A stretch of DNA of 36,077 nucleotides from IMG/VR virus record IMGVR_UViG_3300046512_000093, positions 1 through 36,077 of that record; one strand, written 5' to 3'. A program made the translations under genes and the position numbers. The notes beneath the pieces were generated by a model. The model made no database searches, had not been told where the DNA came from, and saw only the letters and a list, made by a program, of their open reading frames with translations. Below, piece by piece: positions 4,673 through 10,820 of this stretch. The stretch's first letter is position 1, and every line of letters starts with the position of its first letter. The stretch comes from a virus.

Positions 4673-5787
4673 GCCAGGTCCGCGATACCGACGATATCAA
4701 GCAGGGATTGAAGGATCGGATTGTTGATCTGTGTATTCGGCTGCTGCCGGATGGCGCCACGCATGGGCGGCTTTGGGTCGGGCACAATCCTGTTACCTGC
4801 GATCATCACAAGAGCCCGGAATTCAAGGTTGCGCTGACGCGCGATATCGGCGCCTGGAAGGACTGGCGGACCGGCGAAGTCGGCGATGTCATCGGACTGA
4901 TACAGTATTGCCGGCAGTGCAATTTCCGCGAAGCAATGGATTTCGCGCGGGATTTCCTCGGGATCCGGCAGATGAACCGGGAGGACTTCGCCCGCTTCCA
5001 GGAGCGCAGCCGCGAGGCCCGCGAAAAAGCGGCGCGCGATGCCGAGGCGAAGCGCCTGCAGAACATGCGGACCGGCGAAAAGTTGTTTCATCAAGGTTTG
5101 CTCGACGGCGCCGGCAGCGCTGCAGAGGCCAACGCGCGGGCCTATTTTGCCGCCAGGGCGATCCCGCTCGAGCGCATTCCCAATCGGGACCTCTCGACCT
5201 TTCGATTTTCTGCGGCAACGGAATACTGGCGCCGGGCGGAATACCGGCGCGATGGCGGCCGGATGATCAAGCTGAAGGACGGCCCGCTGTTTCCGGCGAT
5301 CCACGCGGCCATGCGGCAACCGACAGGACAGATCTCCGCCTGCCATTGCACCTTTCTGTCGCCCCTCGGCCCGCGAAAACTGCCCGTCGGCAACGATGAA
5401 AACGCCAAGCTCATGCGCGGCGAGGCAAAGGGCGCTGTGATCCGGATCAGCCATGGTCCGGAGGGATTGCCGCCCGAGCTGGCGGTCGAGCCGCATCCGC
5501 TGATCCTCGGCGAAGGCATCGAGACGACGACGTCCGTCGCTATCCCCGCACCCGAGGCGCGCGCCTGGGCCGCCGGCGCAATCTCCAACATCGGCAATGC
5601 GCCGATCTGGTTGCCCTGCATCTCTTCCGTGATCGTCCTGCAGGATCGCTTCAAATCCAAGACCACGGAAAAGCAGTTCTTCGACCAGCTCGAAAAACTG
5701 CGCGCCCACGGCAAGCCGGTCACCTCGATCGAAAGCCACGTGGGCAATGATTTCAACGATATGGCCCAGGAAGGGGATGAGGAATGA
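4669..5787 (+). CDS. Toprim-domain DNA primase
   Basis: This encodes 372 residues. The N-terminus resembles a degenerate CHC2-type primase zinc region (CDHHKSPEFKVALTRD, then WKDWRTGEVGDVIGLIQYC, with further Cys in RQCNFREA), followed by a charged linker. The middle holds a conserved phage primase segment (FPAIHAAMRQPTGQISACH). Residues about 275-290 (PLILGEGIETTTSVAI) carry the Toprim glutamate motif EGIET, and AWAAGAISNIGNAPIW follows. The terminal SHVGNDFNDMA supplies the late acidic D-x-N-D residues. It would make RNA primers, probably together with the P-loop helicase encoded at 8907. The start overlaps the upstream stop by four bases. Confidence 0.88.
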   Translation: MSQVRDTDDIKQGLKDRIVDLCIRLLPDGATHGRLWVGHNPVTCDHHKSPEFKVALTRDIGAWKDWRTGEVGDVIGLIQYCRQCNFREAMDFARDFLGIRQMNREDFARFQERSREAREKAARDAEAKRLQNMRTGEKLFHQGLLDGAGSAAEANARAYFAARAIPLERIPNRDLSTFRFSAATEYWRRAEYRRDGGRMIKLKDGPLFPAIHAAMRQPTGQISACHCTFLSPLGPRKLPVGNDENAKLMRGEAKGAVIRISHGPEGLPPELAVEPHPLILGEGIETTTSVAIPAPEARAWAAGAISNIGNAPIWLPCISSVIVLQDRFKSKTTEKQFFDQLEKLRAHGKPVTSIESHVGNDFNDMAQEGDEE

Positions 5788-6302
5788 CGGGACAGACCAA
5801 TTATAGCAAGGCGATCGACGACGTCGTGTCGGAACGGCTGCGCCAGATCGAAAGCGAAGGCTTCACGGCCGAGCATGACGACCAGCATCAGAATTGGGAG
5901 CTGGCCCGCGCCGGTGCCTGCTATGCGACCGTTGCCACCTACAAGGAAAAGACCCGCAAAGATGCCGCGAAACGCACTTTCGCGCCTGGCACCTGGCCGT
6001 GGGCGCTCGCCTGGTGGAAGCCCAGGGATCGCCGGCGCGACTTGGTGCGCGCTGCAGCCCTGATCATTGCCCAGATCGAAGTGATGGATCGGGCTGATCG
6101 GCTCGATAGAGAATGCCCGGTTTGTGCCGAACCGATGAACGCCGATGATCTTTGCGCGACCGATATCGAGCTGGGCATTTGCCATGCCGCGTGTCTCGAG
6201 GGCTCGCCGACGGTCAATCTCGATACTGGCGAGCCAATGGACGGGCCGATCGCGACCTATCGCTATGACGACGTCGTGAGCCCCAAGGGTTCCGGCCAAT
6301 GA
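5784..6302 (+). CDS. Conserved phage ERxRQ/HDD-family protein with C-terminal zinc knuckle
   Basis: This encodes 172 residues. The N-terminal 110 residues match a family often seen in phage early regions: VVSERLRQIESEGFTAEHDD, then HQNWELARAGACYATV, a WPWALAWWKP box and RRDLVRAAALIIAQIEVMDR. The acidic and His residues suggest a metal-dependent nucleotide-processing fold, but I cannot name an enzyme. The C-terminus adds a CPVCAEPM...DLCATDIELGICHAAC cluster that looks like a zinc knuckle. Four-base overlaps on both sides tie it to the replication operon. Confidence 0.8.
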   Translation: MTGQTNYSKAIDDVVSERLRQIESEGFTAEHDDQHQNWELARAGACYATVATYKEKTRKDAAKRTFAPGTWPWALAWWKPRDRRRDLVRAAALIIAQIEVMDRADRLDRECPVCAEPMNADDLCATDIELGICHAACLEGSPTVNLDTGEPMDGPIATYRYDDVVSPKGSGQ

Positions 6303-6562
6303 GCGAGATCGGACACAACAGCGACGTCGAGAACGTGGCGGCCGCCGAGCTGCGCCAGTTTATCGAGCGCGTCGAGCGGCTCAACGAAGAAGGCAAGGCC
6401 ATCAACCTCGATAAGGCCGATGTGTTTGGCGAGGCGAAAGGCCGCGGCTACGACACGACCGCGATGAAGCGGATTATCCGCGATCGCGCAAAGGATCCCA
6501 ACCAACGCCTTGAGGAAGAGAGCATTTACGAGACCTACAAGGCCGCGCTCGGGATGGACTGA
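6299..6562 (+). CDS. GapR-like DUF2312 nucleoid protein
   Basis: This encodes 87 residues that fit the whole DUF2312 family: AAAELRQFIERVERLNEEGK, then a linker with ADVFGEAKGRGYDTTAMKRI, and IRDRAKDPNQRLEEESIYET near the end. In Caulobacter, GapR clamps overtwisted AT-rich DNA ahead of replication forks and helps topoisomerases. The phage copy follows the primase gene and probably supports phage replication or modifies nucleoid structure. Length matches the cellular family. It is the last gene of the four-base-overlap series. The next gene has its own strong ribosome site. Confidence 0.88.
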   Translation: MSEIGHNSDVENVAAAELRQFIERVERLNEEGKAINLDKADVFGEAKGRGYDTTAMKRIIRDRAKDPNQRLEEESIYETYKAALGMD

Positions 6563-6588
6563 GAGCTAACCCACGAAAGGAGAATGGC

Positions 6589-7038
6589 ATGACGCAAGAC
6601 TACTATGGAACCAAACGCGTGACGGCCTGGCCGCAGAACAAAAATCCCACCCTGATCGCGTCCCCCGAAGGCTACGCTGTCATGTATGAGGGCGGCTATA
6701 CGTCCTGGTCGCCCAAAGACGTATTTGATGCGGCCTATCAGCCGATCACAGCGATGGGTTTCGGCCATGCGATCGCCGCGCTCAAGGAAGGCGGACGCGT
6801 TGCCCGCGCCGGCTGGAACGGCAAGGGCATGTTCATCTGGTTGCGAAGTGGCTCGATCGCATCCGGCACCCCGAAAGACGCCGGCGGGGTGAGCAGCCGC
6901 CACTTCGAAGAGAGCGACCACGGCACTGTTACCGAGATGCCTTGCATCTGCATGCTCGCGGCCGACGGCTCCATCGTGGTTGGCTGGCTCGCAAGCCAGA
7001 CCGACATGCTCGCCGAAGACTGGATGATCGTCGAATAA
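6589..7038 (+). CDS. tad2: Tad2-family (DUF2829) anti-Thoeris protein with extra N-terminal domain
   Basis: This encodes 149 residues with AGGAG upstream of the ATG. Residues about 55-149 match the DUF2829/Tad2 domain: MGFGHAIAALKEGGRVARAG, then WNGKGMFIWLRSGS, MPCICMLAADGSIVVGW and LASQTDMLAEDWMIVE, the last being the family hallmark. Characterised Tad2 proteins bind the cyclic ADP-ribose signal made by Thoeris ThsB and so block defence. The first 54 residues (TKRVTAWPQNKNPTLIAS, GYAVMYEGGYTSWSPKDVF) form a separate small domain seen in other phage proteins of this sort. Activity here is inferred from family membership. A terminator-like hairpin follows the stop. Confidence 0.88.
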   Translation: MTQDYYGTKRVTAWPQNKNPTLIASPEGYAVMYEGGYTSWSPKDVFDAAYQPITAMGFGHAIAALKEGGRVARAGWNGKGMFIWLRSGSIASGTPKDAGGVSSRHFEESDHGTVTEMPCICMLAADGSIVVGWLASQTDMLAEDWMIVE

Positions 7039-7055
7039 CCCGGCGATCGCGCATG

Positions 7056-7082
7056 CCTGCCGTGCGGCCGGCAGGAATTTTT
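7056..7082 (+). terminator. Intrinsic terminator-like hairpin after the Tad2-like gene
   Basis: CCTGCCG (7056-7062) pairs with CGGCAGG (7069-7075) around a six-base loop, followed by AATTTTTC. It would end or attenuate transcription before the next gene, whose ribosome site (GAGGAG) lies just downstream. Confidence 0.65.
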
Positions 7083-7103
7083 CATCAACGAGGAGTTTGA
7101 AAC

Positions 7104-8276
7104 ATGCCCCCGAAAGGTAAGAACGATGAAGAAGTGCAGGCAGGTGCTGGACCGGAAGCAGGCAGCACAGCGACGGAAATTGACGCTGGCGCGGCTGGCG
7201 ATGGTCGCCCAGGCCCGGACGGCCTGGCCGGCACAGATCCGGGCGGCGACGCCGGAGCAACGGACCCGGATGCACGGGACAATGGCGCAGTGGATGACCA
7301 GGGCGCGGCGCTGGCAGCTGCCCAGCCTGGCGGCGCTGGCGCTGACGATGGGAAGGCGGTGAGCGATGGAGCCACATCGGATAGCGGCGACGGCGGAGGA
7401 AATGCAGGAAGCCTTGAGGCAGATTGCAAAGCAGATGGAGCTCCCCTCGGATCTGATCCGCAGCAAAGCGGAAACGACGGCGATGGAAGTGCAGATGCGG
7501 CGGCTGCAGCAACAGGCGCAGCTGCATCCGACCCTACGGATAATAGCACTGAGCACACGACGATCGGAGCTGCAGGCTCTGCGACGGACGATCTTTCAGC
7601 AGCTATTGACAATGAGGGCAATGGCGCCGCCGCCGATGCTGATGGTGCCAAAGGGCTCGACCAGGCCGGAGGAATGGACGGTGTTGCCTCCGGAGGAGAC
7701 GCCGGAGGAGACGCCGGAGGAAACGAAGGCCCGCAACCTGCTGGCGGATCTGACGGTGGAGCTGCGGCGGGTGTTGGTGCAGCTGGCGGAGATCTCGCAG
7801 CTGACGGAGCCGGAAACGGCGCGGATGGTACAGCGGGAAATGAGCCTGTAGCGGCCGAAGGCAGGCCGATCGATTGGGCTGCCTTTGCCGGCATGCGGGT
7901 GCTGTGGAGCACCTATGATTGCGGGCTCGACATCGTCGAGAGCATGCGTGTCGGCGAAGCCGTGCCCTCGCCCAATCTCTTCCAGGAGAATGACCTGGTG
8001 CGCGAGCTGGTGCACTTCACGCGCCGGCTCGGCCGCAATGCCACGCCGGAGATCCTCGCGCAGCATCTGTTCCTGAAGAAATATTGGGACAGCAACATCA
8101 TCGAGCCGCCGGCGGCGATCGCGCTCAAGGCCTTCATCAACACCCTGCTCGACTTCGACGACTTCGTTGCCGCCGAGCGGAAGAAACTGTCGCCTGCAGA
8201 GACGATGGCGCAGAGGCCCGTGCCGATCGAGGACACCACGCTCGAGCTGACCGACGATCCGCTGGCGACCTGGTGA
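7104..8276 (+). CDS. Protein with long Gly/Ala/Asp-rich N-terminus and conserved-looking C-terminal domain
   Basis: This encodes 390 residues, with GAGGAG at good spacing before the ATG. Residues about 10-253 are an acidic low-complexity tract of Gly, Ala and Asp with a 12-bp tandem repeat in it. Residues about 254-390 are ordinary protein (RPIDWAAFAGMRVLWSTYDC, NLFQENDLVRELVHFTRRLG, EILAQHLFLKKYWDSN), with codon use like the neighbours. In the low-complexity part, codons start with G almost throughout and third positions are mixed, unlike other genes here. The neighbouring frame (7126-7851) is therefore also nearly open. The C-terminal domain is certainly coding. The N-terminal tract is probably disordered. 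Function unknown; it lies between two probable anti-signalling genes. Confidence 0.7.
   Translation: MPPKGKNDEEVQAGAGPEAGSTATEIDAGAAGDGRPGPDGLAGTDPGGDAGATDPDARDNGAVDDQGAALAAAQPGGAGADDGKAVSDGATSDSGDGGGNAGSLEADCKADGAPLGSDPQQSGNDGDGSADAAAAATGAAASDPTDNSTEHTTIGAAGSATDDLSAAIDNEGNGAAADADGAKGLDQAGGMDGVASGGDAGGDAGGNEGPQPAGGSDGGAAAGVGAAGGDLAADGAGNGADGTAGNEPVAAEGRPIDWAAFAGMRVLWSTYDCGLDIVESMRVGEAVPSPNLFQENDLVRELVHFTRRLGRNATPEILAQHLFLKKYWDSNIIEPPAAIALKAFINTLLDFDDFVAAERKKLSPAETMAQRPVPIEDTTLELTDDPLATW
7126..7851 (+). other. Overlapping alternative reading frames within the low-complexity gene
   Basis: In the frame shifted +1 relative to the gene at 7104, two ORFs follow each other: 7126-7362 (78 residues, MKKCRQVLDRKQ...) and 7366-7851 (161 residues, MEPHRIAATAEEMQEALRQI...), separated by one TGA. 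The second has GGTGAG before its ATG. Both look helical and would be basic or amphipathic. Their third positions are nearly all G, which follows mechanically from the GNN codons of the main frame, so they are most simply shadows. Expression of a second product cannot be excluded. Confidence 0.3.
7689..7724 (+). repeat. Three tandem copies of a 12-bp unit
   Basis: TCCGGAGGAGAC, GCCGGAGGAGAC and GCCGGAGGAAAC run head to tail. In the main frame they encode GGDA-type repeats, and in the +1 frame PEET repeats. They indicate slippage-type expansion of the low-complexity tract. Confidence 0.8.
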
Positions 8277-8354
8277 TCCATGACGATACCAGGTCTAAGT
8301 TACAATCTTGCGGCCATGAGAGCCTACATCCGCCGCCTTGAACAGGAGAAGAGC

Positions 8355-8594
8355 ATGCCCGATGAAAAGAGGATGATCGACAGCACGTCGGACGATCGCA
8401 CTGTCAACAACACGCTGCGGCAGGAATACCGCGTCCTTTCCGACAAGGAAAAGGAACTGATGGCGAGGATCAAATCCTGCGGCCAGGAACTGCTCGATAT
8501 CATCGCGGAATGCGGCGGCAGCCGCGAACTGTCGATCGCCAAGACCAAGACCGAAGAAGCGGTGATGTGGGCGGTGAAACATGTCACAGCTTGA
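8355..8594 (+). CDS. acb2: Acb2/Tad1-family cyclic-nucleotide sponge
   Basis: This encodes 79 residues from the ATG at 8355, which has AGGAG eight bases upstream. In-frame ATGs at 8280 and 8316 lack such a site. The sequence follows the Acb2/Tad1 hairpin family: NNTLRQEYRVLSDKEKELM, then ARIKSCGQELLDIIAECG and the hallmark SRELSIAKTKTEEAVMWAV near the C-terminus. Acb2 proteins sequester cyclic di- and trinucleotides made by CBASS enzymes, and Tad1 relatives bind Thoeris signals. Together with the Tad2-like gene it suggests an anti-signalling module. Which nucleotide it binds cannot be read from the sequence. It overlaps the next gene by 14 bases. Confidence 0.82.
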   Translation: MPDEKRMIDSTSDDRTVNNTLRQEYRVLSDKEKELMARIKSCGQELLDIIAECGGSRELSIAKTKTEEAVMWAVKHVTA

Positions 8595-8841
8595 CAGCCC
8601 AGAAATGAGCAAATCCGAAGTCATTGAAATGATGCGCCAGTGCCGAGAAGATATCGTGTGCCTTCGAGCAAAGATCGCCGAGCTGGGGCCCAAAGCTCAT
8701 GCCTATGACACCTTAACGCAGGTTCTCGGGTTGCTGCCTCGACAGTCGCAGGCCTACGGCGTGGACATCGTGTATTCACTCGAACGCCGTCTGAAGGCCC
8801 TCGGGGCGGTTCCTGGCGTCGTGGTGCAAGACCCAGAATAA
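8581..8841 (+). CDS. Hypothetical protein with N-terminal coiled coil
   Basis: This encodes 86 residues, starting inside the end of the Acb2/Tad1-like gene, so the two are probably coupled. The first half (MSKSEVIEMMRQCREDIVCL, RAKIAELGPKAHAYDTL) looks like a coiled coil. The second half (VDIVYSLERRLKALGAVPG) is a helix with a hydrophobic tail. No family recognised. A strong GC-rich hairpin follows the stop. Its position next to the sponge gene makes it an accessory candidate of the same module. Confidence 0.65.
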   Translation: MSQLDSPEMSKSEVIEMMRQCREDIVCLRAKIAELGPKAHAYDTLTQVLGLLPRQSQAYGVDIVYSLERRLKALGAVPGVVVQDPE

Positions 8842-8906: not shown

Positions 8907-10820
8907 GTGGCAAAAACACTAAAAATTCAGGCAGGCACCAAGGGAACGCGCGCACATTTTCTCGACGCGATGAGCGACCTTGAGGAGCAAAAAAGCCTCT
9001 TCGACCCGGATCCGAACCTGCTGCGCAACGGCATCAAGGCCGGCGCATGGGACGGATTTCCGCATGATCGCATGCCGCCGGAGTGCCCGATCACCGTGCT
9101 CGGCATGATGGGCGAGAACGTCTATGTGATTTCCGCCACCGGGATCCTGCATGAGGTCAGCCGCTGGGATCACCCGACGCTGGTCAAGCTGTTCACCCCG
9201 CATGTCAACTATCTGAAATGGGCTTTCCCGGCCTGGACGAAGGCGAAGATCGATCCGGAGACCGAACAGGTCATTCCGCCGAAGGTCGATCGCGTTGCCC
9301 GCGACAAGGCCGTCGAGGCGATCATCGCCGAAGCCGGCCGGCGCGGCATCTTCAATCCGAGGGACAATGTGCGCGGCCGTGGCGGCTGGAAGGCGCAGGA
9401 CAAGTTTATCTGGCACTCGGGCACCATGCTATGGAGCGTCGAGACGAAGACGGACGGCGAGAACAAGGCGACCGGCTGGACGCTGAAGGAAGCGCGGCCG
9501 GCCGAATATGACGGGATCTTCTACAAGCGCGACAGCGACACCATTCGCCCCTGGAAGACGCGCGTCGAGATGGCCGAGAGCCCGGCGCATGGGCTGCTGA
9601 AGGATCTGCGCACCTGGTCGTGGGAGCGGCCCTATCTCGACCCGCTGTTGCTGCTCGGCTGGATCGCCTCGGCCTTCATGGGCGGCGCGCTCGAGGTGCG
9701 GCCGATCGTGTTTACCACGGGCGGCGCCGGCGTCGGTAAATCGACGCTGCACAATTTCATCAAGGCGGTGCTGGGCCCGGCGCTCTATTCGACGGCGAAC
9801 ACCACGGCGGCCGGTATCTATCAGAATATCGGCCAGGACAGCCGGCCGGTCGCGGTCGACGAGCTTGAGCGCAAGGGCAACAGCTACAAGGAACAGGCGA
9901 TCATCGAGCTTGCCCGCCAGAGCTATTCCGGCGCGAAGCTTTATCGCGGCGGATCCAACCATGAGGGCATCGAATTCGAGCTGCGCTCGAGCTTCCTGTT
10001 TTCCGCCATTATCCATCCGCCGCTCGAGCACCAGGACAGGACCCGTATGGCGATCCTTAACCTGGACAAGCTGAAGCGCGACCACGGCCGCCAGCCGGTC
10101 ATCAAGGAAGAATACGGCCGGATGATCCTCCGGCAGATCATGGACGGCTATCACGACTTCTATTGGCATATCCTGCCGAAGTGGAAGAAATGGCTCTCGG
10201 ATCCACGCCTGCCCTTCGACGCGCGCGCGATCGACACCTATGGCACGCTGCTCGCCTGCGCCGAGCTGCTGGTCGGCGAGGCCGGCATGATCGAATGCGG
10301 ACTGCGCGCCGACGACATGCTCGAGGACGCGATCGACATCGATCACCTGGTTGACACCATGCTCGAGGCGACCAGCGGCGAGCTGGGGGACACGAAAGAG
10401 AAGTGGCAGGAAGTCCTCGAGCGCATCATGTTCACGACGATCGACCAGTGGAAGGGCGGCGAGAAGCACACCGTCGGTCATGTCATCGCCAGCCTCGAGG
10501 AGAGCTTCTTTCAGCTTCCGGAGGCGCGTGCGATGCTGGCGACGGTGGGCCTCGGCATCCGCGATCGCCACAGCCCCCAGCCCGGCTATTGCCTGGCGAT
10601 CCCCTTTTCATCCTCGAAGGTCGACAAGATCTTCGAGGGCACGGACTTCTATCGCGGCGGCTGGACCAACGCGCTGCGCCAGGCGCCGCCGGCGGTGGCG
10701 CTGCGCGGGCTGGAAAAGAAGCTGGTCGACGTGAAGATCAACCGCGTGACGCAGCGCTGCACGATCGTGGATCTGCAGGGCTATGATGCTATAGTGGATA
10801 CAGATGACGAGGCTACGTAG
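8907..10820 (+). CDS. Phage primase/helicase-type P-loop ATPase
   Basis: This encodes 637 residues from a GTG start with CAGGG upstream. The nearby ATG at 8893 is in another frame. Residues about 270-281 (TTGGAGVGKSTL) are a Walker A motif and about 313-320 (PVAVDELE) a Walker B-like segment. SFLFSAIIHPPLEHQDRTRM resembles the sensor and arginine-finger region of replicative helicases of the D5/SF3 or P4 alpha type. The N-terminal 250 residues hold no motif I can name but resemble the accessory domain of phage helicase-primases (WKTRVEMAESPAHGLLKDL). It probably unwinds the phage origin or forks, working with the Toprim primase at 4669. Confidence 0.82.
   Translation: MAKTLKIQAGTKGTRAHFLDAMSDLEEQKSLFDPDPNLLRNGIKAGAWDGFPHDRMPPECPITVLGMMGENVYVISATGILHEVSRWDHPTLVKLFTPHVNYLKWAFPAWTKAKIDPETEQVIPPKVDRVARDKAVEAIIAEAGRRGIFNPRDNVRGRGGWKAQDKFIWHSGTMLWSVETKTDGENKATGWTLKEARPAEYDGIFYKRDSDTIRPWKTRVEMAESPAHGLLKDLRTWSWERPYLDPLLLLGWIASAFMGGALEVRPIVFTTGGAGVGKSTLHNFIKAVLGPALYSTANTTAAGIYQNIGQDSRPVAVDELERKGNSYKEQAIIELARQSYSGAKLYRGGSNHEGIEFELRSSFLFSAIIHPPLEHQDRTRMAILNLDKLKRDHGRQPVIKEEYGRMILRQIMDGYHDFYWHILPKWKKWLSDPRLPFDARAIDTYGTLLACAELLVGEAGMIECGLRADDMLEDAIDIDHLVDTMLEATSGELGDTKEKWQEVLERIMFTTIDQWKGGEKHTVGHVIASLEESFFQLPEARAMLATVGLGIRDRHSPQPGYCLAIPFSSSKVDKIFEGTDFYRGGWTNALRQAPPAVALRGLEKKLVDVKINRVTQRCTIVDLQGYDAIVDTDDEAT

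Follow-up and report, generated by a model that had tools for sequence, protein, structure and literature searches.

What are two different nucleotide sponges doing side by side in the replication operon of a phage? The question is raised by a short segment of a viral genome of 36,077 nucleotides (IMG/VR record IMGVR_UViG_3300046512_000093, positions 1 to 36,077; hereafter the window), in which a Tad2-family gene at 6589 and an Acb2-family gene at 8355 are separated by a long open reading frame (ORF) at 7104 and followed by a small gene at 8581. Tad2-family proteins are tetramers that bind the ADP-ribose signals of Thoeris, some members binding cyclic dinucleotides too, and Acb2-family proteins are hexamers that bind the cyclic di- and trinucleotides of the cyclic oligonucleotide-based antiphage signalling system (CBASS). 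Both sequester their signals and do not destroy them (PMC12043709). Our analysis indicates that the segment is probably an anti-signalling hot spot in the replication operon of a rhizobial phage and prophage lineage, with Tad2 as the cargo of one exchange site (site A) and Acb2 plus the 8581 product as the cargo of another (site B). The observations that back this reading directly are the family membership of the two proteins, the conservation of the Acb2 pocket, the exchange of DNA at gene borders and the position of every detected PF24729 or PF11195 sponge within this one segment.

Two sponge-family genes next to the helicase

The segment with both sponge genes lies between a gene for a GapR-like DNA-binding protein (6299-6562; PF10073, 7.5e-27) and one for a phage primase/helicase-type replication protein (8907-10820; phrog_35358 DNA primase, 9e-32). 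Its four genes, tad2, 7104, acb2 and 8581, are contiguous and co-oriented, and every gene of the window described here is on the plus strand.

The product of tad2 (6589-7038; 149 amino acids) consists of an N-terminal phage module of 55 residues and a Tad2 domain (about 6754-7032), with residues 56-148 forming a full-length match to the PF11195 Tad2-like profile (8.3e-25, 87.6 bits, against a curated cut-off of 25). Solved Tad2 structures are matched at 1e-21 to 7e-13, including SptTad2 (1e-21), HgmTad2 (1e-20) and Gp34.65, the SPO1 Tad2 (1.6e-13), and a match to phrog_872 spans the whole protein. The GWNGK and SQTDMLAEDW loops are conserved in 6589 and its relatives, a comparison of loops rather than of residue-by-residue contacts. 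Thus, 6589 resembles the known members of the Tad2 (Thoeris anti-defence 2) family (SPO1 Tad2, SptTad2, HgmTad2 and also AcrIIA7) in its full-profile domain and in the GWNGKGM and GWLASQTDMLAEDW loops, and differs from them in its separate N-terminal module, which most close relatives share; it is a predicted sponge. This module (6589-6750; SWSPKxVFxxAYQP) partly matches phrog_9467, and because the C-terminal part of phrog_9467 matches an Acb4-family protein, the module may perhaps be common to different sponges.

The second sponge gene falls in an ORF open from 8280 to 8594 that matches PF24729 (Acb2_Tad1_hairpin) at 2.2e-18 and 66.6 bits (cut-off 27). Since a Shine-Dalgarno sequence, AGGAG, precedes the ATG at 8355 and the relatives of this ORF begin near its residue 26, the most likely start is 8355 rather than 8280, giving a predicted product of 79 amino acids (8355-8594). 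When a profile was built from 18 Acb2 relatives, the solved Pseudomonas-phage Acb2 (p26), T4 Vs.4 and Tad1 were among its matches (E 0.001-0.07). Y25 and K40 of the window protein are invariant in the 18 relatives and align with Y11 and K26 of p26 from PaMx33, residues that line the cyclic-dinucleotide pocket. The substitution Y8A in T4 Acb2, at the counterpart of Y11 in PaMx33, disrupts binding (PMC12657218). The protein therefore shares with Acb2 (anti-CBASS 2; PF24729; p26 of PaMx33-type phages, T4 Vs.4) the hairpin domain, a length of about 79 residues and the tyrosine and lysine of the dinucleotide pocket; it is distant from the characterised members (profile E 0.001), and its C-terminal motif AKTKTEEAVMWAVKH is nearer the T4 Vs.4/Tad1 type.

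The original prediction, which had called both families from short hallmark motifs, is borne out here: the two proteins are in place, their matches in the PF11195 and PF24729 profile searches are far beyond chance, and the pocket residues whose loss would have spoken against the call are, for Acb2, retained in the alignment. It had also described a small gene coupled to acb2, and the last 14 nucleotides of acb2 are indeed shared with 8581. The sponge genes are 1.24 kb apart, and its picture of one gene between them needs amending in part: the intervening ORF (7104-8276) also holds two nested +1-frame ORFs with a coding signature.

Exchange of cargo around a core gene

Searches starting from the helicase collected relatives of the segment among both viral contigs and bacterial genomes, and 22 of them, the window counted in, share the order GapR, 7104-type gene, slot, helicase; the GapR-like gene is the conserved left border, lying upstream of the slot in each of the 22, and the helicase gene is the conserved right border in every one. 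Apart from the helicase, only alignments led to relatives, and single-sequence searches for relatives of the 7104 C-terminal domain and of 8581 found nothing. The closest relative obtained, L151, is a prophage of Rhizobium sp. ICMP 5592 whose helicase is 94% identical in amino acid sequence.

In blastn comparisons, DNA homology between the window and L151 is nearly continuous across the segment save for two gene-sized blocks. At site A (6583-7023), tad2 is replaced in L151 by an unrelated gene of 89 amino acids, and at site B (8254-8841), acb2 and 8581 are replaced by a PF13876 gene. Comparison with L137 and L147 puts the borders of site A at the same positions within about 20 nucleotides, and those of site B are similar. 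Judging from these alignments, two exchangeable cargo sites flank the core gene 7104, one on each side. PF13876 is the Acb4 sponge family, with 1,331 members reported and all eight of those tested binding 3'3'-cyclic GMP-AMP (3'3'-cGAMP) (PMC11722364); having considered it as a new associated anti-defence candidate, we rejected it as such on account of that publication.

A sponge of the Acb2, Tad1, Tad2 or Acb4 family is found at the slot or adjoining it in 16 of the 22 relatives. Acb2 occurs alone in L144, L149, L152 and L056, Tad2 alone in L138, L145, L146 and L059, and both together in the window and L148. The other occupants, neither of which is present in the window, are Tad1 (L150 and L157; in L150 the solved Tad1 and the related gp184 are matched at 1e-16 to 1e-20) and Acb4 (PF13876, SPO1 gp1.3), which is in L140 at 8e-32 by PF13876 and in L143, L151 and L155 by a profile built from the L140 gene. 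Whole-record scans of 16 relatives with PF24729 and PF11195 gave 12 matches, and all 12 lie between GapR and the helicase. The two-sponge pair is rare, being limited to two of the 22 lineage members; among 55 Acb2 loci, only one has a Tad2 gene within 5 kb, and that locus is L148's contig. Because the pair is so rare, the comparisons support an anti-signalling hot spot with exchangeable sponges rather than a fixed module. What survives of the proposed anti-defence island is thus the clustering of anti-signalling functions, with four families represented in the slot, and not a standing combination of two sponges. Like other phage anti-defence islands, it gathers several counter-defence genes at a variable site; what sets it apart is its place in a replication operon, its arrangement around a core gene and the alternation of sponge families within it.

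Some points weigh against this reading. Six of the 22 relatives (L137, L139, L142, L147, L153 and L154) lack any recognised sponge there, and the slot is therefore not exclusive to sponges. Moreover, the relatives share ancestry, and counts across them are not independent trials.

Several occupants of the slot deserve mention in their own right. In the Rhizobium leguminosarum prophage L157, Tad1 (5497-5939), which is preceded by an 8581 homologue, reads in two frames and may for that reason be inactive. Small genes stand at the exchange sites of the sponge-negative relatives L137 (6653-6937), L142 (6666-6938), L147 (5433-5702) and L154 (5623-5907; this one resembles DUF2158), and are candidates for other counter-defence functions. 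The 63-residue product of L059:5574-5765 (FFEYAHLPPHLQAVS...), encoded next to Tad2, matches phrog_1761 and, weakly, the Acb2/Tad1 hairpin (E 0.15), making it a possible distant hairpin sponge. Finally, Acb4-family (PF13876-type) genes lie within 5 kb of Tad2, often directly adjoining it, in 18 of 80 Tad2 loci (L068, L077, L080, L083, L084, L086, L132 and L133 among them) versus none of 89 Acb2 or 8581 loci. This neighbourhood may reflect either sponges that pair up repeatedly or an effect of clade; it is confounded by phage clade, and we do not use it as proof.

The genes 7104 and 8581

The two unassigned genes of the segment had been put forward as possible new anti-defence proteins by virtue of their association with the sponges. 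The 7104 ORF (7104-8276; 390 amino acids) has a Gly/Ala/Asp-rich N-terminal half and a helical C-terminal domain that is conserved in the alignment of relatives (AlphaFold2 pLDDT, the predicted local distance difference test, 76); a fold search of this domain found nothing significant in the PDB. The gene counts as core, because each of the 22 relatives has it whatever their sponge content, and an argument from association accordingly finds no support for it.

The product of 8581 (8581-8841) is a helical protein of 86 amino acids from a family common in alphaproteobacterial phages, whose core, EIxxLRxxIxxLxPKAdAYD, is conserved in an alignment of 33 members. Its AlphaFold2 model has a long helix and a short one (pLDDT 73), and a fold search against the PDB gave no significant match. 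Of about 39 homologues, only a few adjoin sponges: among the 34 viral homologue loci, L214 alone has a clear sponge neighbour (Tad1), with two weak matches besides, and the homologue in L157 also adjoins Tad1. Conversely, 8581 homologues occur in none of 55 Acb2 loci and none of 80 Tad2 loci. From these surveys, the family appears not to be sponge-linked, though in the window 8581 shares with acb2 the stretch in which L151 differs. The suggestion that both genes are locked into the segment thus holds to the extent that acb2 and 8581 form one block relative to L151, but cargo varies independently of 7104. The available comparisons do not support either gene as an anti-defence candidate, and we regard both as poor ones.

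Nested reading frames within 7104

Two ORFs are nested in the +1 frame of the Gly/Ala/Asp-rich half of 7104: orfA (7126-7362; 78 codons, basic, MKKCRQ...; relatives in 14 genomes), preceded by a Shine-Dalgarno-like AAAGG, and orfB (7366-7851; 161 codons), which joins orfA through a TGA-GCG-ATG junction and is variable between relatives, with a C-terminus conserved in four genomes. Their openness as such is no evidence of coding, because codons starting with G suffice to open the +1 frame: codons 8-245 of 7104 are Gly/Ala/Asp-rich, 71% of them start with G, and codon shuffles open the +1 frame equally far (P 0.70). Our first reading was therefore that the nested ORFs are an artefact of a GNN-rich frame, and it was dropped on the strength of substitution patterns and a conserved junction.

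Synonymous changes in the +1 frame were compared with base-matched resampling in pairs of relatives. An earlier pairwise test guided by the main-frame protein alignment had given mixed signs, which were resolved by splitting at the +1 stops. Between the window and L151, the +1 frame has a synonymous excess at z 3.6 for orfA and 2.6 for orfB, and between L137 and L147 at 2.5 and 2.6 for the first and second ORF, respectively. Further pairs behave alike (L143-L145, first ORF, 3.3; L144-L145, second ORF, 2.4; L146-L143, second ORF, 4.0), this range of 2.4 to 4.0 applying to the better-aligned pairs. In those pairs, the main frame has no synonymous excess over the orfA and orfB region, and it takes over the signal past the stop of orfB, with z values of about 3 to 8. 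Neither is seen in pairs with dissimilar second ORFs, and more distant pairs inside the window's clade give weak signals only.

Of the 22 relatives, 20 have a stop-NNN-ATG junction between the two ORFs, where codon shuffles would predict 2.6. The junction is usually TGAGCGATG, with TAG and TAA versions as well, so that all three stop codons are used, and ribosome-binding-like sequences precede the ATGs of both ORFs. Together, the substitution pattern, the conserved junction and these ribosome-binding-like sequences make nested coding in 7104 likely. The main frame, for its part, is not a mere by-product of the +1 ORFs: in simulations that kept the +1 proteins and used normal codons, the combined fraction of Gly, Ala, Asp, Glu, Ser and Thr was 0.55 (standard deviation 0.03) as opposed to the 0.79 observed, although 10% of draws had zero main-frame stops.

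Family searches with orfA and orfB gave no matches, and a stand-alone orfB was not found in the single scan made. Between relatives, orfB is replaced by dissimilar versions. We entertain, as a rather unlikely extension, the idea that the Gly/Ala/Asp-rich half is dual-coding with a lineage-wide orfA and orfB pair, in which orfB would be an exchangeable anti-host or anti-defence factor amid the hot spot. The arrangement recalls overprinted genes of viruses in which one partner is disordered (PMC8227390), in that one frame is apparently disordered and loosely constrained and the other sequence-constrained; here, by contrast, an early gene of a double-stranded DNA phage contains two nested ORFs in succession, 78 and 161 codons long, and the second is variable.

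Discussion

Other explanations of the segment can be advanced. That tad2, 7104, acb2 and 8581 are contiguous and co-oriented, with acb2 overlapping 8581 and the two forming a single replaced block relative to L151, might suggest a single anti-defence module that is inherited together and acts jointly. We find this highly improbable given that cargo in the relatives varies independently of 7104, itself present in all of them, that Tad2 and Acb2 are found together in just two, and that 8581 homologues are rarely near sponges. It is also very unlikely that the 6589 product is an AcrIIA7-type anti-CRISPR instead of a nucleotide sponge. Its closest solved relatives do include a chain named AcrIIA7 (9kzr, 2e-18) and 8kbi, deposited as a type II CRISPR-Cas inhibitor, but the nucleotide-binding SptTad2 and SPO1 Tad2 belong to the same family, the GWNGK and SQTDMLAEDW loops are common to 6589 and that family, and relatives carry other nucleotide sponges in the slot.

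One or both proteins could instead be family relics that have lost ligand binding. The Tad1 of L157 illustrates how a sponge gene here can become split between frames, and activity of the 6589 and 8355 products is predicted from their sequences. Even so, both ORFs are intact and have good ribosome sites, and the Acb2 pocket residues and the family motifs are kept, and we give this alternative little credence. Exchangeable, presumably functional sponges at an anti-signalling hot spot account best for the segment.

How might such a hot spot serve the phage? From what is known of the two families, we infer that both sponges would be expressed early, oligomerise, bind their families' ligands and protect the phage. 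According to this model, Tad2 and Acb2 would be made early from the replication operon, and Tad2 would bind Thoeris signals of the glycocyclic ADP-ribose (gcADPR) type and Acb2 the cyclic oligonucleotides of CBASS before the effectors respond, so that the two together may provide joint cover against Thoeris and CBASS. The swapping of Acb2, Tad1, Tad2, Acb4 or no sponge among relatives is consistent with selection by the signalling defences of the current host, and finding such diverse sponges at a single site would fit a changing set of host signals. Sponges may also carry a price, as Panoptes senses nucleotide sequestration and makes them costly in hosts that possess it (PMC12657218). In a sample of 100 genomes from the genus that hosts the closest prophage, 21 have a CD-NTase (SMODS) domain scoring above the cut-off, as does the Rhizobium sp. 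ICMP 5592 genome itself; the hosts therefore plausibly offer a CBASS target for the sponges.

If the nested pair is real, it would be an unusually long example of dual coding for a tailed phage, shared across the lineage, and standard gene calls would overlook two genes in each such phage. If the hot spot is what it appears to be, phage evasion of nucleotide-signalling immunity would be readable from one short slot, with four sponge families rotating through two sites beside the replication genes of rhizobial phages in a manner that probably tracks host CBASS, Thoeris and Panoptes-like guards. The slot occupants of the sponge-negative L137, L142, L147 and L154 would then constitute a short list of candidate counter-defence proteins.

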